Assembly: GCA_035690485.1 (NCBI GenBank)
Contig: DASSKL010000005.1
Location: 1-64,000 of the forward strand
Length of the DNA: 64,000 nt
Source of the DNA: Mycobacteriales bacterium
Lineage (GTDB): Bacteria > Actinomycetota > Actinomycetes > JAFAQI01 > DASSKL01
Direction of reading: 5' to 3'
Shown: piece by piece, positions 51,360 through 61,248 of the stretch
Layout: the number at the start of each line of letters is the position of its first letter
Numbering within the stretch: position 1 is the stretch's first letter
Made by a program: the position numbers and the translations under genes
The notes under the pieces: generated by a model
Seen by the model: the letters and a program-made list of their open reading frames with translations, nothing else
The model's database searches: none
Told to the model about the DNA's origin: nothing

Positions 51360-51436
51360 ACGGATTCGGCTCGTCCCCCCCGGAGTCGGATCTGTCCAAG
51401 ACGACCCCCGTCACCCCCCCCGACGGGGGTCGTCTG
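51360..51436 (+). ncRNA. 6C RNA (actinobacterial small RNA)
   Basis: Two hairpins, each with a run of C in the loop, define the actinobacterial 6C motif. Hairpin 1: 51363-51372 pairs with 51383-51392 (10 bp, two wobbles), the loop holding seven C (51375-51381). Hairpin 2: 51399-51412 pairs perfectly with 51422-51435 (14 bp), the loop holding eight C (51414-51421). The place between a HAD-IB gene and ssd, on the ssd strand, is the known site of 6C RNA in mycobacteria and Streptomyces. The 5' end is not fixed by sequence; the second hairpin may also end the transcript. In M. tuberculosis 6C RNA acts on mRNAs through its C-rich loops. Confidence 0.87.
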
Positions 51437-51593
51437 CTGTCCCGGGCCGGCCGCCCGCGTCCGGCCGCCGTCTGCTGTCGGGTCCGGCCCCTGTGGACGT
51501 GGCGTTCGTCGTCCACAACGGCGTACGACGCCGCTGCGCCGCTGCACCGGTTGCGGCCATCGTTCGGGTCGAGTCCCGACCTTGGAGCGTGCC
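51437..51593. other. region between 6C RNA and ssd
   Basis: About 157 bases with no coding bias. It carries a ribosome site TTGGAG at 51581-51586 before the ssd GTG. No strong promoter motif was recognised. Confidence 0.5.
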
Positions 51594-52688
51594 GTGACCG
51601 CCGCCTTCGCCCCGCCCGCAGGCAACCGCCCTCTGCTCGTCACCGCCGACGAGCAGCTGCTCGACGACCTCGTCCGGCTCGCGGCCGTCGCTGGCATCGA
51701 GACCACGGTCGTCGCGGACCTCGGCGCCGCGCGACCGCTGTGGCTTGCCGCCACCGCGGTCGTGGTGGGTGGCGACCTGGTCGCCGCTGCCGCGGCGGCG
51801 AGTCTGCCTCGCCGCGAGCGTGTGGTCGTAGTCGCCCGCGCCGACGACGAGGAGCTGTGGCGTTCCGCCGTCACGCTGGCCCCGGCCCGGGTCGGCAGCA
51901 TGCCCGCGGCAGAGGAGTGGCTCATCGACCTGTTCGCCGACGCCGCGGACCGGCTGCACGGGCCGGCCGCCGACGGCCTCGTCGTCGGCGTCATCGGCGG
52001 GCGCGGCGGCGCCGGTGCCTCGACCCTCGCCTGCGCGCTGGCGGTGACCGGGGACCGAGCGGGACGGCGCACGACGCTCGTCGATGCCGATCCGCTCGGC
52101 GGCGGCATCGATCTGCTTCTGGGTGGCGAGGACACCGGGGGGTTGCGCTGGCCCGAGCTCACCGGAGCGAGCGGCCGCGTCGACGGTGCCGCACTGCGGG
52201 AGGCGCTGCCCCGAGTGGGTGAGCTGGCCGTGCTGTCCTGGGACCGCGGCGATGCGCTCGCCATCCCGCCGGCCGCGATGACCGCCGTCCTCGACGCGGC
52301 GGCGCGCGCGAGCGATCTGGTCGTGGTCGACCTGCCGCGACACGACGACCCCGCCGCGGAGGTGGTGCTGCCGCGACTCGACGCCACTCTGCTCGTCGTG
52401 CCGGCGGAGGTGCGCGCGACGGCGGCCGCGGCTCGAGTCTGCGCCCGGGTGACCGGACGGTGCCGCGACCTGCAGCTGGTCGTTCGCGGCCCGTCACCCG
52501 CAGGCCTCGACGGGGCCGGCGTCGCGCAGGTGCTCGGGCTGCCGCTGGCCGGGGAGCTGCGCCCGGAGCCCGGGCTGGCTCAGGCCCTCGAGGTCGGCGA
52601 ACCGCCGGGCCGCCGCCGACGCGGCCCGCTGGCCGACTTCTGCGCGAGGCTCTTGCGCGGGCTCGACGAGGCGGGCCGAGCGGCGTGA
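51594..52688 (+). CDS. ssd: septum-site-determining protein Ssd (CpaE/MinD-like)
   Basis: A 364-residue protein. The N-terminal ~115 residues are receiver-like without a clear phosphoacceptor, the CpaE/TadZ pattern. The ATPase-like domain begins VGVIGGRGGAGASTLACAL, in which the Walker A lysine position is occupied by Ala (GAGAST instead of GVGKTT). TTLVDADPLGGGIDLLLGGE supplies the Walker A' -like aspartates and SDLVVVDLPRHDDPAAE the Walker B region. It matches Ssd (Rv3660c), which affects septum formation and is encoded at the head of the Tad locus, where a TadZ-type positioning role is expected. The stop overlaps tadA by GTGA. Confidence 0.9.
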   Translation: MTAAFAPPAGNRPLLVTADEQLLDDLVRLAAVAGIETTVVADLGAARPLWLAATAVVVGGDLVAAAAAASLPRRERVVVVARADDEELWRSAVTLAPARVGSMPAAEEWLIDLFADAADRLHGPAADGLVVGVIGGRGGAGASTLACALAVTGDRAGRRTTLVDADPLGGGIDLLLGGEDTGGLRWPELTGASGRVDGAALREALPRVGELAVLSWDRGDALAIPPAAMTAVLDAAARASDLVVVDLPRHDDPAAEVVLPRLDATLLVVPAEVRATAAAARVCARVTGRCRDLQLVVRGPSPAGLDGAGVAQVLGLPLAGELRPEPGLAQALEVGEPPGRRRRGPLADFCARLLRGLDEAGRAA

Positions 52689-53854
52689 GCGCAGCCCTGG
52701 AGGTCGGCGACCTCGTCGAGCGGGTGCGCCGGCGGCTCGCCGACGAGGGCGTCGAGCCGTCACCCGAGCGGGTGGCCCGGGCGGTGCGGCAGGAGGCGGG
52801 CACCCGGGGCGACGTGGCGCTGCTCGCCGCGCTGCGTCAGCTGCGGGCCGAGACGGTGGGCGCGGGCCCGCTGCAGGTCCTGCTCGACGACGAGGCGGTG
52901 ACCGACGTCATCGTCAACGCGCCGGACGAGGTGTGGGTGGACCGCGGCCAGGGTCTCGAGCGCGCCGAGGTGACGCTGACCGACGAGGCGGCGGTGCGGC
53001 GGCTTGCGCAGCGACTGGTCGCGGCGTGCGGCCGGCGACTCGACGACGCCGCGCCGTTCGCCGACGCCCGGCTGCCCGACGGCACCCGCGTGCACGCCGT
53101 GCTCCCGCCGATCTCGCCGACCGGCACCTGCCTGTCCCTGAGGGTGCCGCCGCGGCGGGCCTTCACCCTCGACCAGCTCGGCGACGCGGGCACGGTCTCA
53201 CCCGCCGGCGCGGCACTCCTGCAAGCGATCGTCACGCGGCGGCTCGCCTTCGTCGTGAGCGGCGGCACGGGCACCGGCAAGACCACGCTGCTCAGCACGC
53301 TGCTCTCGCTGGTGCCGCCGGGCCAGCGCCTGCTGCTCGTCGAGGACTCCGCCGAGCTGCGGCCGACGCACCCCCACGTCGTACGCCTGGAGGCTCGGCC
53401 GGCCAACGTCGAGGGCAGCGGCGCGGTGACGCTCGCCGTGCTGGTGCGACAGGCGCTGCGCATGCGACCGGACCGCATCGTCGTCGGCGAGGTCCGTGGC
53501 GCCGAGGTCGTCGATCTCCTGGCGGCTCTCAACACCGGTCACGACGGTGGCTGTGGCACCGTCCACGCCAACCGTGCGGTCGACGTCCCGGCGCGGCTCG
53601 AGGCCCTGGCCGCCGCGGGTGGGCTGTCGCGCGAGGCGCTGCACAGCCAGCTCGCCGTCGCCCTGCACGTGGTCGTCCACCTGACCCGCGGTCCGGACGG
53701 CCGGCGGAGGCTGGCCGACATCTGTGTGCTGCAGCGCGGGCCCGACGGGTGCGTCGTCGCGCTCCCGGCGTTCACCGACGGTCCGGACGGACTGGTCGAG
53801 GGTGCGGCAGCGCCGCTGCTGCGGGCGATGCTGCGCCGCCGGGTCGTGGCATGA
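52685..53854 (+). CDS. tadA: TadA/CpaF-family secretion ATPase
   Basis: A 389-residue T2SS-E-family ATPase that powers Flp/Tad pilus assembly. Walker A is VVSGGTGTGKTTLLSTLLSL; the Asp box is LLVEDSAELRPTHPHVVRLE; Walker B MRPDRIVVGEVRGAEVVDLL; the His box is NTGHDGGCGTVHANRAVDVP. The N-terminal ~100 residues form the CpaF stalk region with DEAVTDVIVNAPDEVWVDRG. It should act as a hexamer on the cytoplasmic face with TadB/TadC. GTGA overlap with ssd and ATGA with tadB show a tight operon. Confidence 0.95.
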   Translation: MSAALEVGDLVERVRRRLADEGVEPSPERVARAVRQEAGTRGDVALLAALRQLRAETVGAGPLQVLLDDEAVTDVIVNAPDEVWVDRGQGLERAEVTLTDEAAVRRLAQRLVAACGRRLDDAAPFADARLPDGTRVHAVLPPISPTGTCLSLRVPPRRAFTLDQLGDAGTVSPAGAALLQAIVTRRLAFVVSGGTGTGKTTLLSTLLSLVPPGQRLLLVEDSAELRPTHPHVVRLEARPANVEGSGAVTLAVLVRQALRMRPDRIVVGEVRGAEVVDLLAALNTGHDGGCGTVHANRAVDVPARLEALAAAGGLSREALHSQLAVALHVVVHLTRGPDGRRRLADICVLQRGPDGCVVALPAFTDGPDGLVEGAAAPLLRAMLRRRVVA

Positions 53855-54690
53855 GCGAGCGGGCACTACTCGCCGGCCTGCTCGTCGCGGCTGCGATCAC
53901 CGTGTGGACCAGCTCGTGGCCGCTGGAGCGCGTGACTACCGTCGTCCGGGGCCCGCGGGCGGCGATCTCGCCCGCCGGCGCGGGTGATCTGTTCGTGCGC
54001 TGGGCCCGGGCGCCGCGCTGCTGGGTGGCCGTGGTTGTTGCCGCCGCCGTCGCCACGATCGTCGACGGTCCGGTCGTCGGGGCACTCGCCGCTGCGGCGA
54101 CGGCGGTCGGGGCGCGGGGCCTGCTTCGCCGTCGAGAGGCTGCGCTGGAGTCCGCTCGGCGGGCCGCGGCGGTCGACGTCGCCATGGCGCTGGCTGCCGA
54201 GCTGCGGGCGGGCCAGCCGCTGGGGGTGGCGCTGGCCGCGGCGGGCGAGGTGGCGGGCCCGTTGCGGGCGGGCATCCAGGAAGCCGCCGGCGTTGCCGCA
54301 CTCGGCCACGACCCCGCGCCGGTCCTCCGGGCCAACGCCGAGCTGCCCGGCGCCGGGGGACTGACGGCCATAGCAGCTGCCTGGACCGTGGCGTCGCAGG
54401 CCGGCGCCGCTCTGTCGCCGGCCCTGGTGGCCGTCGCGGCCGCGCTCGACGAGGAGGAGCGCACGCGGCACGAGGTGCAGGCCCAGCTGGCCGGCCCGCG
54501 TGCGACCGGACGCGCGCTGATGGCGCTGCCACTGCTCGGTGTCGGCATGGCGGCGTCGATCGGTGCGCACCCCGGGCAGCTGCTGCTGCACACGGGGTGG
54601 GGTGCGTTGCTCTGCACAACCGCTGTGGGGCTCGCCGCGGCAGGCCACTACTGGCTGGAGTGGCTCGCACACCGGGCCGTGGCGCCGTGA
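53851..54690 (+). CDS. tadB: TadB inner-membrane platform protein
   Basis: A 279-residue T2SF-family protein with an N-terminal membrane segment, a helical cytoplasmic domain with VDVAMALAAELRAGQPLGVA, and C-terminal helices LLGVGMAASIGAHPGQ and beyond. The T2SF domain is shorter than in TadB of Gram-negative Tad systems, as is usual in actinobacteria. Together with TadC it forms the platform coupled to TadA. Confidence 0.88.
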   Translation: MSERALLAGLLVAAAITVWTSSWPLERVTTVVRGPRAAISPAGAGDLFVRWARAPRCWVAVVVAAAVATIVDGPVVGALAAAATAVGARGLLRRREAALESARRAAAVDVAMALAAELRAGQPLGVALAAAGEVAGPLRAGIQEAAGVAALGHDPAPVLRANAELPGAGGLTAIAAAWTVASQAGAALSPALVAVAAALDEEERTRHEVQAQLAGPRATGRALMALPLLGVGMAASIGAHPGQLLLHTGWGALLCTTAVGLAAAGHYWLEWLAHRAVAP

Positions 54691-55445
54691 CCGGCGCGCT
54701 GCCGGCGGCCGTCCTCGGTGGCGCGGCCGTCGCGCTGGCTCTGCGCGACGCGACGCCCGCCGGCCGGCGTCTCGCCGGTCTGCGGCCGCCGCCGCAGCAC
54801 GCGGCCCAGCGCCTCGACGTCGCACGGCCCGTCCGGCGCGACGCCATGTTGTCGACCCGCTCGCGGTTCTTCGCGGCAGCGGCCGCCGGGCTCGGCGTCG
54901 CCCTCGTCGTCAGCGGGGCGGCGGGCGTGCTGGCGGGAGCGGTGGCCGCCCTCCTCGCGGGTCGCTGGTTGGCACGACTGCCGCCGGCCGGCGCCGTCCG
55001 CGACGCGCGGCGCCTGCGTTCGGAGCTGCCGCTTGCGCTCGACCTGCTGGCCGCCTGCCTGCAGTCGGGCCTACCGGTCGTGACTGCCCTCGACGCCGTC
55101 ATCGGTGCTGTCGACCCGGTGCTCGGCGCGCGGCTGATGCCCGCGCTCACCGCGTTCCGGCTCGGGGCGGGGCCGGTCGAGGCCTGGCGTCCGCTGGCCG
55201 GCGACGACGTGGTCGGTCCGGCGGCCCGGACGCTGATGCGCGCCGGTCGCACCGGGGCGCCGTCGGCCGACGTCGTCAGCGCCCTGGCCGCGCGCCACCG
55301 CGAGCAGGTCCGGGCCGACTACGAGCGGGCGGCGCGGGCCGTGGGCGTCTGGGCGGTGGGCCCGCTCACGGTCTGCTTCCTGCCCGCGTTCGTGCTCGTC
55401 GGGGTGGTCCCCATCGTGTGGGGCCTGGTCGGCTCGATGGTCTGA
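54687..55445 (+). CDS. tadC: TadC inner-membrane platform protein
   Basis: A 252-residue T2SF-family protein. After two N-terminal membrane segments the T2SF part carries LRSELPLALDLLAACLQSGL and LMRAGRTGAPSADVVSALAA, followed by a final helix pair GPLTVCFLPAFVLVGVVPIV. It is the second platform component. The GTG start overlaps the tadB stop. It ends the first half of the operon; 172 bp without a gene separate it from the pilin gene. Confidence 0.88.
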   Translation: MTGALPAAVLGGAAVALALRDATPAGRRLAGLRPPPQHAAQRLDVARPVRRDAMLSTRSRFFAAAAAGLGVALVVSGAAGVLAGAVAALLAGRWLARLPPAGAVRDARRLRSELPLALDLLAACLQSGLPVVTALDAVIGAVDPVLGARLMPALTAFRLGAGPVEAWRPLAGDDVVGPAARTLMRAGRTGAPSADVVSALAARHREQVRADYERAARAVGVWAVGPLTVCFLPAFVLVGVVPIVWGLVGSMV

Positions 55446-55617: not shown

Positions 55618-55869
55618 ATGCGCCGCACGATTCATGCTGTCGCCAGTCGCTTTCGAGCTGCCTGTTCCACGATCGCCCCGCTGGCCGCACCGCGGCGGGT
55701 GGCCATGCGCCTGCGACTCGACGAGGTGGGCAGCGCCACGGCGGAGTACGCCGTCGCGACGGTGGCCGCCTGTGGGTTCGGGGGGATCCTGTTCAAGATC
55801 CTCACCGGGGACAGCGTCATGAAGCTCCTGCAGCAGGTGATCACCAACGCGCTCAAGCACTTCCTGTGA
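55618..55869 (+). CDS. Flp-type pilin (DUF4244)
   Basis: An 83-residue pilin precursor. A basic leader of about 40 residues ends in EVGSATAEYAVATVAACGFG, the DUF4244/Flp cleavage-and-helix motif in which prepilin peptidase cuts before a hydrophobic stretch containing the conserved Glu-Tyr. The rest is a single transmembrane/assembly helix. The ATG at 55618 has GGAGG 5 nt upstream, the strongest ribosome site of the operon. A start at 55705 would remove most of the leader. It overlaps the TadE gene by GTGA. Confidence 0.85.
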   Translation: MRRTIHAVASRFRAACSTIAPLAAPRRVAMRLRLDEVGSATAEYAVATVAACGFGGILFKILTGDSVMKLLQQVITNALKHFL

Positions 55870-56282
55870 TCTGGCGCCCTGGGGTGCGGCGGGTGGCCGC
55901 CGGTCTTCGGGGAGCCGCCGGCCCCGGTCGCGCCAGCGACCGGGGCTCGGTCACCGCCGAGACCGCGGTCGTGCTGCCGGTGCTCGTGCTCGCGGTGGCC
56001 CTTGGCGTGTGGCTCGTGCTCGTGGCGCTCGCCCAGCTTCGCTGCGTCGACGCGGCGCACGCCGCGGCTCGCGCGGCGGCCCGCGGCGAGCCCGTGTCCG
56101 CGGTTCGTGCCGCGACGGTCGATGCCGCACCGGCGGGCGCTCAGGTCACCATCGCGCAGGAGGGCCGGGCGGTGACGGTCGCCGTGGCCGCCACCGTGCG
56201 CCCGTTCGGCGGCCTGCTCCGCCTGGTGCCGAGCGTGCACGTGGGCGCCACCGCGCACGCCGAGTCGGAGGCGGGGTCGTGA
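55866..56282 (+). CDS. TadE-family pseudopilin
   Basis: A 138-residue TadE-like protein. After ~25 residues comes DRGSVTAETAVVLPVLVLAV, the TadE motif with Glu five residues into the hydrophobic helix, then a small extracytoplasmic domain. It is presumably processed by the prepilin peptidase and joins the pilus as a minor subunit. The GTG at 55866, overlapping the pilin stop, was chosen over the GTG at 55884. Confidence 0.85.
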   Translation: MIWRPGVRRVAAGLRGAAGPGRASDRGSVTAETAVVLPVLVLAVALGVWLVLVALAQLRCVDAAHAAARAAARGEPVSAVRAATVDAAPAGAQVTIAQEGRAVTVAVAATVRPFGGLLRLVPSVHVGATAHAESEAGS

Positions 56283-56785
56283 CGCTGGGTGAGCGCTCGC
56301 GCGATCCCGGCGCTGAGCGTGGCTCCGCCACCGTCTGGCTGCTGGCGTTGCTGCCTCTCCTTCTCTGTGCGACGGCCGCGGCCGTCCTCGTCGCCTCGGC
56401 GGTGATCGCCCGGCACCGGGCGGCCCTTGCGGCCGACCAGGCAGCGCTCGCCGCGGCCGCTCGGGCCGCTGAGCTGCAGCCGCTCACGGCGGTGGTCGAC
56501 GTGGCCGCCGACGTCGCGGGCAAGACCGGGGTCGCGGGCGCCATCGGTGGCGCGGCCGCCCGCGCGGGCAGCACCCTGCTCATCCAGCGGCGGGCCTGCG
56601 CGGCGGCCCGCGCGACCGCGTCGGCCAACGGCGCGCACGTCACGTCCTGCACCCTGATCGACGGTGTCGCCGACGTCTCGGTCGCGATCTCGGGCCGTGG
56701 CCTGCTCGGCCGGTTCGGTGGAGCCCACGGCCGGGCCCGCGCCGGTCCCGCTGGGCCAAGCCCGACATTCCCCGCGATGTGGTGA
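56279..56785 (+). CDS. TadE-like protein of the helicase/secretion neighbourhood (Rv3654c type)
   Basis: A 168-residue protein. RGSATVWLLALLPLLLCATA is a TadE-related start with Ala/Val replacing the usual Glu context, followed by a helix rich in Ala with ADQAALAAAARAAELQP, and a Cys pair in the C-terminal part. It corresponds to the last tad gene of mycobacterial and Streptomyces loci. GTGA overlap with TadE. It ends with a Gly/Pro/Arg-rich tail. Confidence 0.82.
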   Translation: MTLGERSRDPGAERGSATVWLLALLPLLLCATAAAVLVASAVIARHRAALAADQAALAAAARAAELQPLTAVVDVAADVAGKTGVAGAIGGAAARAGSTLLIQRRACAAARATASANGAHVTSCTLIDGVADVSVAISGRGLLGRFGGAHGRARAGPAGPSPTFPAMW

Positions 56786-56921: not shown

Positions 56922-57641
56922 ATGCAGCCGACGTTCGCTCCCGCGCCGGTGGGGCCACGCCCCCGCGGGATCGCCGCGCTGCTCGGTGACTGCCTGCGCC
57001 GGCCGGGCGGCCGGCGGGTCGTCTCGCTGCTCACGGTCGTGCTGTTCATCGCCGGGGTCGGCATGTTCGCCTACCCCGTCATCACCGACATCCAGGCGCA
57101 GCACCGCCAGTCGGAGCTGAAGAGCCAGTTCGAGAGCCACTTCGCCGATCCGCAGTTCCGCCAGGTCTACCGCGAGCACAAGATCGAGGTCGGCGAGGGC
57201 CTCACCCGCCTGCAGATGCCCAAGATCGGCGTCGACGTCCTCGTCGTCGAGGGCACCACGCCGGCCGCGCTGCGCGCGGGCGCCGGGCACTACCCCGAGA
57301 CCCCGCTGCCCGGAGAGAAGGGCAATGTCGGCATCGCCGGGCACCGCACGACCTACGGCCGGCCGTTCAACCGCCTCGACGAGATGGGCGCAGGCGACAA
57401 GGCCATCCTCATCACGCCGTTCGCCGAGTTCACCTACGTCGTGGTGCCCGCGTTCGACGGCCACCCCAACCCCTGGCCGGTCGCTCCCGACGACTTCAGC
57501 GTCGTGTCCCAGGCCGGTGCCCTCGGCGCGGGTCACTGGCTGACGCTGACGACCTGCAACCCCAAGGGCAGCGCCCGGCAACGACTGATCCTGCGGCTCA
57601 AGCTCGCCGACACCAAGATGCTCAGCGGAGCCGTCAAGTGA
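56922..57641 (+). CDS. class E sortase
   Basis: A 239-residue membrane-anchored transpeptidase. One helix spans about residues 34-54. The sortase barrel carries LQMPKIGVDVLVVEGTTPAA, the catalytic His in GNVGIAGHRTTYGRPFNRLD, and TLTTCNPKGSARQRLILRL with the catalytic Cys and Arg. Class E enzymes of high-GC actinobacteria normally recognise LAxTG-type signals. It lies directly after the tad pilus genes and its stop overlaps the start of an exported protein gene, so the pair forms a two-gene unit. Its target is unknown. Confidence 0.92.
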   Translation: MQPTFAPAPVGPRPRGIAALLGDCLRRPGGRRVVSLLTVVLFIAGVGMFAYPVITDIQAQHRQSELKSQFESHFADPQFRQVYREHKIEVGEGLTRLQMPKIGVDVLVVEGTTPAALRAGAGHYPETPLPGEKGNVGIAGHRTTYGRPFNRLDEMGAGDKAILITPFAEFTYVVVPAFDGHPNPWPVAPDDFSVVSQAGALGAGHWLTLTTCNPKGSARQRLILRLKLADTKMLSGAVK

Positions 57642-58870
57642 GAGGCACCCGCGGCCGGCTGCGCGCGTTGGCCTTGCTTTCAGCCGGCGCCGGCACGCTG
57701 CTGCTGGGCGCGCTCCCCGCATCGGCCGCGGCCGGCATCAGCATCACGACCGCGAGCGACGGCTCGGCGGTCAGCGCGAGCCAGCCGGTCACCGCCGACG
57801 ACGTGCTGCAGATCCACGGCCAGATCGACCCCCGGACCAAGACCACCGACCTGGTCGTCACTGCGCCTGCCGGTGACAGCCACACGGTCGCCGAGGCCAC
57901 CGCCAGCTTCACCAGCGGGGCGAGCCTCGACTTCGACCTGACGACCTCCTGCCTCACTTACGACGCCCGCCGGGCCCCGTGCAGCGGCCGCTCGCCGGCC
58001 CCCAACGGCACGTGGACGGCGCAGCTCACCGGGGGCGCGACGGCCACCTCGCAGTTCGTCCTGCGGATTCCGCCGGCCGCACCGACCGGAGTCACCGCGA
58101 CCGCCAGCGGCAGCGGTGCGGTCGTCTCGTGGCAGCTCGGGGCCGAGCCCGACCTCCGCTCCTACGACGTCCTCGACGGGTCCGGGCAGCAGCTCGTCGG
58201 GGGCCTCAGCCCGTCCAACGTCTGCGACGCCAGCGGTGGCTGCAGCACGACGATCGCCAAGACCAGCGCGCAGTCGTTCATGGTGCGGGCGCACCGGGCC
58301 ACGTGCCCGTCCTGCAGCGACACCGTCGCCTCGGCGCCGTCGAGCGCGGCATCGATCTCCTCGGGCAGCAGCGCCGCCCCCGTGCCGTCCCAGAGCGGCG
58401 ATCCGTCCGCCGGCGGCAGCACGCAACCAGGGTCCAGCTCAGGCACCGCACAGGGCGGGTCACCGGCTCCGTCGACGAGCCCGGGTGCGCAGCCGTCCGG
58501 CGGCAAGCCGGGCGCGGCCGGGGTGAGCGCGCCGGGGCGCCGGGCCGCCGCCAGTGGCGCGGCCGGCCGGCTGCTGCAGCAGTTCCTGCCGGCGCCGACC
58601 GCGCTGCAGGCGCCCACCGTCCCGGCCTCGATCCTCGCGCCGCTCGCCGACGGCACCTACAAGCCCAAGCTGGCCTACGGCCAGCAGACCGTCGGCGAGG
58701 ACGTGCTCGTGCCCGACGGCTCGACCCCGCGGATCGCGGCCCACTCCACCGGCGTGCTCAGCGGGCTGATGGACAGCGGCCGGGTCTGGGAGTCCGTCGC
58801 CGAGGGCGTCCTCCTGCTCCTGGTCTGCGCCCACCTCATGGCCTGGCTGGCGCGCACCCGCCCCGAGTAG
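57638..58870 (+). CDS. exported Fn3-like protein with Ser/Pro-rich stalk and C-terminal membrane anchor
   Basis: A 410-residue surface protein. A signal peptide (about 1-31, cut after PASAA) is followed by a beta-rich domain (about 32-145), then an Fn3-like module PAAPTGVTATASGSGAVVSW to about residue 240 with four Cys that could form disulfides. A Ser/Gly/Pro/Gln linker (about 245-300) and an Ala/Pro-rich part lead to a final helix EGVLLLLVCAHLMAWL and basic end ARTRPE. There is no LPxTG or LAxTG before the helix, so it seems to be a membrane-anchored type I protein, not a sortase substrate. Translation is coupled to the sortase (GTGA). Confidence 0.8.
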   Translation: MRGTRGRLRALALLSAGAGTLLLGALPASAAAGISITTASDGSAVSASQPVTADDVLQIHGQIDPRTKTTDLVVTAPAGDSHTVAEATASFTSGASLDFDLTTSCLTYDARRAPCSGRSPAPNGTWTAQLTGGATATSQFVLRIPPAAPTGVTATASGSGAVVSWQLGAEPDLRSYDVLDGSGQQLVGGLSPSNVCDASGGCSTTIAKTSAQSFMVRAHRATCPSCSDTVASAPSSAASISSGSSAAPVPSQSGDPSAGGSTQPGSSSGTAQGGSPAPSTSPGAQPSGGKPGAAGVSAPGRRAAASGAAGRLLQQFLPAPTALQAPTVPASILAPLADGTYKPKLAYGQQTVGEDVLVPDGSTPRIAAHSTGVLSGLMDSGRVWESVAEGVLLLLVCAHLMAWLARTRPE

Positions 58871-58926: not shown

Positions 58927-61248
58927 TCAGCCCAGCCGGGCGACCACCAGGTCGAGCAGCCGCAGGGCACCCGACTTGTCGAGCGGCTGGTTGCCGTTGC
59001 CGCACTTCGGCGACTGGACGCACGACGGGCAACCCTGCTCGCACTCGCAGGCGGCGATGGCATCCCGCGTCGCGGTCAGCCAGCGGTCGCTCGCCCGGTA
59101 GCCGCGCTCGGCGAACCCGGCACCGCCGGGGTGACCGTCGTACACGAAGACGGTCGTCAGTCCGGTGTCGGGGTGCAGGGCGGTCGAGACCCCGCCGATG
59201 TCCCACCGGTCACAGGTCGCGAACAGCGGCAGCAGCCCGATCGACGCGTGCTCGGCGGCGTGCGCCGCCCCCGGCACGTCGGCCGACTGCAGGCCCGCCT
59301 GCTCCAGCAGCGGTGGCGTCAGCGTCCACCAGACGGCAGCCGTCCGCAGCTGCCGCGGCGGCAGGTCCAGCGCCACCTCGCCGAGGATCTCGCCGGAGCC
59401 CAGCCGGCGGCGTAGATACGCGACCACCTGGCTGGTCACGTCGACCGTGCCCACGGCGACCGCCACCCCGCCGGCGTCGCGCTGCTCGGCGGTCGAGACC
59501 ACCCGGATCTCCGTCACCTCGCGGGCCGACGTCGTGTGGTCCGGCTGCGCCGGCTCGAGCAGCGCGACGGACTCGTCGAGGTCCAGTGCGCGCACGAGAT
59601 AGGTCTCGCCCTGGTGCAGGTAGACCGCGCCCTCGTGCGCGGTGCTGTGCGCCGCCGCGGCGTCGACCGTGCCGAGCAGGCGCCCGGTGCCGGCCTCGAC
59701 CAAGCGGACCGGCGTGCCACCCGTGCCTCGGATGTCGGTCAGGTCGTGCGCGCGGTCCCGCCGCGTCCAGTACCAGCCGGCCGCTCGCCGGCGCAGCAGC
59801 CCGCGCTCGGCCAGCTCGGGCAGCAGCTGCATGGCCGCCGGCCCGAAGACCTCGGTGTCGCCGTCGGACAGCGGCAGCTCGGCGGCTGCGGCGCACAGAT
59901 GCGGGCCGAGGACGTGCGGGTTGTCGGGGTCGAACACGGTGGCCTCGACCGGCCGCGCGAAGACCGCCTCCGGGTGGTGGACGACGTAGGTGTCCAGCGG
60001 ATCGTCGCGGGCCACGAGCACCGCGAGAGCCGGCTGCCCCCCGCGCCCCGCCCGCCCCGCCTGTTGCCACAGCGATGCGCGGGTCCCCGGCCAACCCGCC
60101 ATCAGGACCGCGTCGAGCCCCGACACGTCGATGCCGAGCTCCAGCGCCGACGTCGCCGCGACCCCGAGCAGCCGGCCGCTGCGCAGGTCCCGCTCGAGCG
60201 TCCGGCGCTCCTCGGGCAGGTAGCCGGCTCGGTAGGCGGCGACCCGGCCGGCAAGCTCCGGTGCCACCTCCGCCAGCCCCCGTCGCGCCGACAGCGCGAC
60301 GGCCTCGGCCCCGCGCCGGGAGCGGACGAAAGCCAGCGAACGCACGCCGGACGTGACGAGGTCGGCGAGCAGGTCGGCGGTCTCCGCGGTCGACGACCGC
60401 CGGGCCGGAGCCCCCCACTCCCCGAGCCCGTCCATCAACGGTGGTTCCCACATCAGGAACGTGGTGGCTCCGCGCGGCGCCGCGTCGTCGACCACCTCGG
60501 TGACCTCGGCCCCGACGAGACGCGACGCCGACCGACCCGGCTCGGCCACCGTCGCCGACGCCAGCACGAACGTCGGGCTCGCGCCGTAGTGCGCGCAGAT
60601 CCGCCGCAGCCGCCGCAGGATCTGGGCCACGTGCGCGCCGAACACGCCGCGGTAGGCATGGCACTCGTCGACGACCACGAAGCGCAGCGCCCGCAGGAAG
60701 CCGGCCCAGCGGGTGTGCTGCGGGAGCAGGCCGAAGTGCAGCATGTCGGGATTCGTCAGCAGCAGGTTCGCGTGGGCCCGCGCCCAGTCGCGCTCCTCCC
60801 GCGACGTGTCGCCGTCGTGGCGCGAGGGGCGTACGCCGGGCAGGTCGAGCCCGACGATCGATTCGAGCTGGTCGCTCGCGAGGGCCTTCGTCGGCGCGAC
60901 GTACAGCGCCGTGGCCGGAGCCGATGCGCTCGTCAGCAGCGAGAGCAGCGGAAGCTGGTAGGCGAGCGACTTGCCCGACGCGGTGCCGGTGGCGACCACG
61001 ACGTGCCGGCCGGACCACGCAAGGTCCGCGGCGACGGCCTGGTGCTCCCAGAGCGCGCCGATGCCCCGGTCGGTCAGCCGTTCGCGGACGGGCGGCGGCA
61101 CCCAGGACGGCCAGGCGGCGGTGCGACCGGCGCGCGCCGGCAGGTGCTCGACATGCGTCAGCCGCTCCCGGCGTCCGGGACCCTGCAGCAGCGCCGTGGC
61201 CGGCCCGGCGTCCGGCGACGACACGGACCGGGACACGGACAGGGACAC
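58927..61248 (-). CDS. DEAD/DEAH-box helicase of the MrfA/DUF1998 type
   Basis: A 773-residue superfamily 2 helicase. Walker A is VATGTASGKSLAYQLPLL, the DEAH-type box is VVVDECHAYRGVFGAHVAQI, motif III LASATVAEP, motif V ATSALELGIDVSGLDAVLMA and motif VI QQAGRAGRGGQPALA. The C-terminal DUF1998 region has four closely spaced cysteines CECEQGCPSCVQSPKCGNGN, as in MrfA, which acts in mitomycin-type DNA repair. It is the helicase that conventionally neighbours actinobacterial tad genes. In-frame GTGs at 61248, 61236 and 61224 make the start uncertain. Confidence 0.9.
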   Translation of the reverse strand: MSLSVSRSVSSPDAGPATALLQGPGRRERLTHVEHLPARAGRTAAWPSWVPPPVRERLTDRGIGALWEHQAVAADLAWSGRHVVVATGTASGKSLAYQLPLLSLLTSASAPATALYVAPTKALASDQLESIVGLDLPGVRPSRHDGDTSREERDWARAHANLLLTNPDMLHFGLLPQHTRWAGFLRALRFVVVDECHAYRGVFGAHVAQILRRLRRICAHYGASPTFVLASATVAEPGRSASRLVGAEVTEVVDDAAPRGATTFLMWEPPLMDGLGEWGAPARRSSTAETADLLADLVTSGVRSLAFVRSRRGAEAVALSARRGLAEVAPELAGRVAAYRAGYLPEERRTLERDLRSGRLLGVAATSALELGIDVSGLDAVLMAGWPGTRASLWQQAGRAGRGGQPALAVLVARDDPLDTYVVHHPEAVFARPVEATVFDPDNPHVLGPHLCAAAAELPLSDGDTEVFGPAAMQLLPELAERGLLRRRAAGWYWTRRDRAHDLTDIRGTGGTPVRLVEAGTGRLLGTVDAAAAHSTAHEGAVYLHQGETYLVRALDLDESVALLEPAQPDHTTSAREVTEIRVVSTAEQRDAGGVAVAVGTVDVTSQVVAYLRRRLGSGEILGEVALDLPPRQLRTAAVWWTLTPPLLEQAGLQSADVPGAAHAAEHASIGLLPLFATCDRWDIGGVSTALHPDTGLTTVFVYDGHPGGAGFAERGYRASDRWLTATRDAIAACECEQGCPSCVQSPKCGNGNQPLDKSGALRLLDLVVARLG

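Follow-up and report, generated by a model that had tools for sequence, protein, structure and literature searches.

A divergent sortase and an Ig/Fn3-like membrane protein between the tad genes and the helicase of an actinobacterial Tad pilus locus

To our knowledge, how a Tad pilus passes through and is held in the thick Gram-positive cell wall is an open question. The tad/Flp loci of M. luteus are needed for transformation, and actinobacterial loci of this kind (the Rv3660c–Rv3654c type) comprise Ssd, TadA, TadB/TadC, a DUF4244 pilin, TadE, a TadE-like protein, and the TIGR03817 helicase. Sortase islands, such as srt1/srt2 of Rhodococcus equi (PMC2947987) and the class C pilus islands, place a sortase beside its presumed LPxTG substrate. 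Type IV pili are treated as distinct from the sortase pathway in a survey of these pili in Gram-positive bacteria from 2011 (PMC3244431), and the papers that mention both the sortase and the tad pathways are mainly bifidobacterial reviews and work on R. equi. Searches of the open-access literature gave no report of a sortase in an actinobacterial tad locus or of the gene set LPX-srtE-P2 described below.

The window analyzed here (the whole stretch of 64,000 nucleotides) contains all the tad components named above, and TadA, two T2SSF proteins, a Flp-type pilin, and TadE are encoded in one strand-consistent run, as expected of an actinobacterial tad locus (Table 1). It differs from the described loci by two extra genes between the tadE-like gene and the helicase, one for a sortase (SrtE) and one for a protein with Ig-like and Fn3-like domains (P2). 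The first-pass annotation had reported this coupled pair at this place as an addition to the usual gene order. The open reading frames bear out the arrangement, and neither srtE nor P2 was present in this gap in tad loci sampled from many other actinomycete families.

Table 1. Genes of the tad locus in the window, with positions counted from its first nucleotide.
Feature	Position	Strand	Remarks
ssd (CpaE/septum-site-like ATPase), first tad gene	51639..52688, start approximate	+	TIGR03815, 378.6 bits
tadA ATPase	52685..53854	+	TIGR03819, 511 bits
tadB-like T2SSF membrane protein	53851..54690	+	PF00482
tadC-like T2SSF membrane protein	54687..55445	+	PF00482
DUF4244 Flp-type pilin	55618..55869	+	PF14029, E 4e-20; without sorting signal
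TadE minor pilin (TadE_Rv3655c)	55866..56282	+	NF041390; without sorting signal
TadE-like Rv3654c-family protein	56279..56785	+	TIGR03816; without C-terminal sorting signal
srtE, divergent class E-like sortase, 239 aa	56922..57641	+	N-terminal membrane anchor; His141/Cys212/Arg221
P2, Ig-like + Fn3-like protein, 410 aa	57638..58870	+	secreted, C-terminally membrane-anchored, Ser/Pro/Gly stalk; GTGA-coupled to srtE
DEAD/DEAH helicase closing the tad locus	58927..61248	- (convergent)	TIGR03817, 1238.8 bits

The genes from ssd through tadC overlap their neighbours, as do those from the pilin through the tadE-like gene, whereas the latter is separated from srtE by 136 bp, with a Shine-Dalgarno-like GGAG before srtE. 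The pair, whose two genes share a 4-bp overlap (stop TGA at 57639–57641, start GTG at 57638), may thus be a separate transcription unit. An inverted repeat spotted by eye 5' of srtE was dropped, since its folding energy was about that of shuffled sequences (z 0.13). A 6C RNA (Rfam RF01066, 60.1 bits) lies at 51360–51438 (+), a short distance 5' of ssd.

Families f1, f2, f12, f13, and f20, among them a sister family and three more families of actinomycetes, have the srtE-P2 pair in this place, after the tadE-like gene and ahead of the helicase. Within the window's order, P2 was present in 9 of 12 other genomes, always directly after srtE and mostly in a GTGA/ATGA-type overlap or near-contact, and wherever the contig was long enough the pair lay downstream of the tadE-like gene and before the helicase. 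Among the close loci of a scan of named genomes (n = 26, nearly all from Frankiales MAGs), P2 followed srtE in 23, and tad genes lay upstream in 22; where the upstream sequence exceeded 4 kb (nine loci), tad genes were seen in eight.

Other genes were also seen in this region. Loci from many families (L077, L079, L082-L085, L089-L091, L056, and L058) carry in the gap between the tadE-like gene and the helicase, on the opposite strand, a gene for a small membrane protein that has a charged tail and two hydrophobic segments. In family f12, an extra gene between the tadE-like gene and srtE (L055, 2576-3499; L058, 8338-9348) codes for a protein that combines a zinc ribbon with several membrane helices. 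In genome G042, the contig ends on either side of the expected site (end of C33 and start of C32; L057 and L056) each carry a sortase of the subfamily; the two differ from each other and possibly represent a tandem duplication within the tad locus.

In loci outside Frankiales, srtE is often immediately preceded by a gene for a secreted protein of roughly 400–600 residues that carries a sorting signal, mostly LPRTG and in a few cases LAxTG. Most of these proteins form one family, here called LPX (alignment A4), for which nothing useful was found among the Pfam or NCBIfam models and which has the features of a sortase substrate, i.e. a signal peptide, a C-terminal LPxTG, a hydrophobic helix, and a basic tail. 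In the distant loci of the scan (n = 53), LPX lay directly before srtE in 26 of the 45 with room for it, P2 followed srtE in 29 of 48, and tad genes preceded srtE in 18 of the 33 with more than 4 kb upstream. The gene order there was tad genes, LPX, srtE, and P2, followed in several loci by the same helicase, and the cassette often stood just after tadE. LPX-srtE-P2 is a conserved set of three genes that has apparently not been described. Like the sortase islands, it combines a sortase with a neighbouring presumed LPxTG substrate; it differs from them in that the substrate family is unnamed in Pfam and NCBIfam, in that a membrane Ig/Fn3 partner belongs to the set, and in that it often lies inside a type IV-type pilus locus.

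Family f12 also has second srtE copies, located away from tad, which show the order srtE, short membrane protein, and LPRTG-type protein. In two of these (L072, 6621-10303; L073, 8917-12398), the short membrane protein resembles the P2 tail, and an LPRTG/MPRTG protein comes next. A second LPxTG family (approximately 600 aa, with a DUF11 domain) occurs in genomes of the window's order (L181, L187, L191, and L206) and is like the LPRTG proteins before srtE in L123, L124, and L126; a protein search of the window genome did not find it.

The tad locus of the window contains no LPX gene, and a search of the window genome with A4, representing the distant LPX family, gave no match. A search with an LPxTG-anchor model revealed an LPHTG protein of 477 residues (G000:C10:137170-138600), which ends in LPHTGANLPLTAGVGALLLGAAAMVRRRMTS and has orthologues across the order. 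When the alignment of this protein and its orthologues (A5) was compared with A4 by hhalign, the two matched over 213 columns with a probability of 98.2 and an E-value of 2.8e-14, the match being C-terminal, inclusive of the generic sorting signal, and based on a shallow profile (Neff 2.1). Among 297 genomes of the class, A5 proteins were found in 13 (E < 1e-30) and the SrtE subfamily in 14 (E < 1e-80): both were present in 12, the sortase only in two, the LPX protein only in one, and neither in 282. A Fisher test of this co-occurrence is inflated by shared ancestry; the match spans four families, and a member of the order that lacks both the pair and LPX (G006) has kept the tad locus, the helicase, and a housekeeping-type sortase. 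The one genome with LPX only (G008) is fragmented, 86% complete, and showed no tad pilin. The sortase occurs without an A5 protein in G030 and in G012, the latter having a different LPxTG family.

We consider it probable, at about 0.6, that srtE-P2 is the tad-embedded part of the LPX-srtE-P2 set and that SrtE is dedicated to LPX-type proteins and not to the pilin. SrtE would be a membrane-tethered transpeptidase that cuts the LPxTG signal of LPX-type proteins and joins them to peptidoglycan, and in the window genome its likely substrate would be the LPHTG protein, encoded away from srtE. P2 would not be a substrate; held by its C-terminal helix, it would carry its Ig/Fn3 domains outward on the flexible stalk and would probably act together with the anchored protein, the Tad machinery, or both, as a wall-spanning guide or docking protein. 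The enzymatic activity and specificity of SrtE, LPX as its substrate, and any role in pilus function are what we infer from features seen in sequence, namely gene order, co-distribution, the sortase clade, the catalytic residues, and sorting signals that are present on LPX and absent from the pilins and P2. The conserved place of the pair, the neighbours of srtE in the distant loci, the A5 protein with its LPX-like sequence and its distribution, the G006 genome, the LPRTG-type proteins beside the second f12 copies, and a distinct sortase clade that scores below the class E cut-off (see below) all argue for this reading. Against it stands that, in the clade to which the window belongs, LPX was adjacent to srtE in none of the 15 loci with room, so that the substrate link is indirect. 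In addition, the housekeeping class E sortase could process LPX, and the window genome encodes further LPxTG proteins, which were sought by family search and of which the list may be incomplete. The C-terminal nature of the A5-A4 match and the two sortase-positive genomes without an A5 protein also weaken the case.

The sortase, the LPxTG protein, and the membrane Ig/Fn3 protein, recurring as they do next to tad genes, are concrete candidates for holding the pilus in the wall; beyond weak generic domain matches, the LPX and P2 families are unnamed in Pfam and NCBIfam. Should the link to Tad be genuine, an unrecognized cell-wall component would take part in the adhesion or DNA uptake that depends on Tad in actinobacteria. 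A more far-reaching reading, which we hold to be less likely than not, is that in many Actinomycetota a dedicated sortase pathway is wired into Tad pili, with LPX anchored in the peptidoglycan by SrtE and the membrane-held P2 docked to it, the two forming a wall-spanning collar or anchoring point for a type IV-type pilus. Such a collar would couple pathways of the cell surface that are commonly considered apart from each other.

The alternative that survives best is that the cassette is unrelated to Tad pili and that the tad-helicase junction is merely a conserved site for it. In a phylum sample of 397 evenly drawn genomes, the SrtE subfamily was present in 33. With locus counts restricted to more than 6 kb of upstream sequence, 18 of 35 loci lay directly downstream of at least two same-strand tad genes, and 17 did not lie beside tad. 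Among the 16 genomes with a locus off tad, a clear TadA-family ATPase is encoded elsewhere in 14, and weak matches only were obtained in the other two (those of L122 and L150). Since about half of the loci are off tad and two such genomes are without a clear TadA, a role with Tad is not obligatory. The second copy elsewhere in f12 and one locus with the pair and the helicase and no tad genes within 10 kb (L101) point in the same direction. However, tad linkage at about half of the phylum loci is spread through the tree and is far above what chance would give for a 10-kb neighbourhood in multi-Mb genomes, and family f15 retains P2 at tad without the sortase. We regard an independence from Tad as doubtful. 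The first-pass annotation had proposed a search for the pair beside tad genes in other actinomycetes, with a location mostly away from tad as the sign of a merely positional link. The pair does recur at tad loci, with tad genes upstream in 22/26 close relatives and directly before 18/35 of the sortase loci in the phylum sample; it does not lie mostly away from tad in the clade, and in the phylum the location is about half-and-half. The cassette is strongly associated with tad and not bound to it.

P2 has a signal peptide and two beta-sandwich domains (AlphaFold strands 33-142 and 150-231, with moderate to high confidence there), followed by an unstructured Ser/Pro/Gly stalk, a helix at 380-407, and a very short tail ending in LARTRPE. 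One P2 homologue matches Pfam fn3 and Big_7 weakly. The fold search gave generic Ig/Fn3 matches, mostly to vertebrate receptors, and thus no functional hint. Weak class-level P2 matches in f17, f18, f24, and others looked like generic Fn3 matches and were left uncounted.

A P2 homologue was found near the tad pilin gene in 12 large genomes of family f15. In the seven loci that were read, P2 comes after the tadE-like gene, the helicase comes next, and a sortase is absent from the interval; the protein has a long cytoplasmic tail past the membrane helix. P2 therefore belongs to the tad locus by itself rather than as a sortase substrate in disguise. The open frames of these proteins (L061-L067) are approximately 560–720 aa, and part of the family ends in a conserved acidic motif like PERPLRQPEPDVWTEDD. 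The first-pass annotation had suggested that P2 may be a chaperone or cofactor of SrtE, and the f15 loci bear on the proposal that it has no other role, for example presenting the substrate or holding the enzyme at the wall and nothing else. The coupling or close spacing of srtE and P2 in the window and its relatives, together with their co-occurrence, which extends to loci without tad (e.g. L122-L127 and L172), speaks for this proposal. Nevertheless, we find it unlikely, given P2 at tad without a sortase in f15 and srtE without a recognizable P2 in a few relatives (L099, L108, and L113). P2 is probably more than a sortase helper and has a job of its own.

The possibility that SrtE covalently attaches the Tad pilin, the minor pilins, or a pilus tip formed by P2 to the wall, as was also suggested at first, is favoured by the strict place of the pair after the tadE-like gene and before the helicase in the clade. 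However, the pilin, TadE, and the TadE-like protein are without a C-terminal sorting signal, which makes attachment of the pilin itself unlikely. As for P2, inspection of its sequence agreed with the earlier description of a C-terminal membrane helix and no LPxTG/LAxTG in the C-terminal part; in all ten P2 proteins of the order (the window and nine relatives), a C-terminal sorting motif is absent and the helix and short tail are present. Since, moreover, the f15 proteins continue into a long cytoplasmic tail and srtE of other lineages has a genuine LPxTG partner in front of it, a relative of which is encoded in the window genome, we consider attachment of pilin or P2 very improbable and favour LPX-type proteins as the substrates of SrtE.

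SrtE had initially been taken for a complete class E sortase. Its completeness was confirmed: besides the membrane anchor, the sortase domain is clearly recognized (PF04203, E 7e-25, 87.6 bits against a cut-off of 26.6), and H141, C212, and R221 are present and invariant in a 15-sequence alignment of relatives. The class assignment calls for caution, as SrtE scored 125.5 bits on the NCBI class E model NF033747, the cut-off of which is 160. Five relatives scored 121.5-142 bits (subfamily range 121-142), and housekeeping copies 233-257, among them one at C6 of the window genome (257 bits). In a tree of 105 sequences, obtained by a quick method without bootstrap, the SrtE subfamily forms one clade apart from housekeeping class E (SH-aLRT 100, stem of 1.42 changes per column), and its 82 rows are the window enzyme, all 79 scan loci, and the two f12 second copies. 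That SrtE is a housekeeping class E copy beside tad by chance is therefore scarcely credible, although NF033747 is still its best model and the PDB structures that match it best come from SrtE enzymes and C. diphtheriae SrtF, because it stands in a separate clade with a long supported stem and coexists with a high-scoring housekeeping copy in the same genome.

SrtE shares with the housekeeping class E sortases (S. coelicolor SrtE1, S. avermitilis SrtE, and A. missouriensis SrtE) the fold, the catalytic triad, the S3-site tyrosine, the N-terminal membrane anchor, and the actinobacterial range. Apart from clade and score, its subfamily differs from them by its link to tad and to proteins that are mostly LPxTG rather than LAxTG, and the SrtE loop between GHY and the catalytic His is shorter than in SrtE1. 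Y124 of SrtE aligns with Tyr229 of SrtE1, a residue of the beta3/beta4 loop that is proposed to select alanine and thereby to favour LAxTG over LPxTG, the preference of SrtE1 being only two-fold (PMC5148588). The retention of this LAxTG-associated tyrosine counts against dedication to LPX, but the LAxTG/LPxTG specificity of SrtE cannot be read from that residue. No LPxTG protein was found in the 20 kb around either of the other two sortases of the window genome; the third sortase, located on C16 (L024, 8678-10129, - strand) and likewise without an LPxTG neighbour, is very divergent and carries a Pro/Thr/Ser-rich C-terminal tail.
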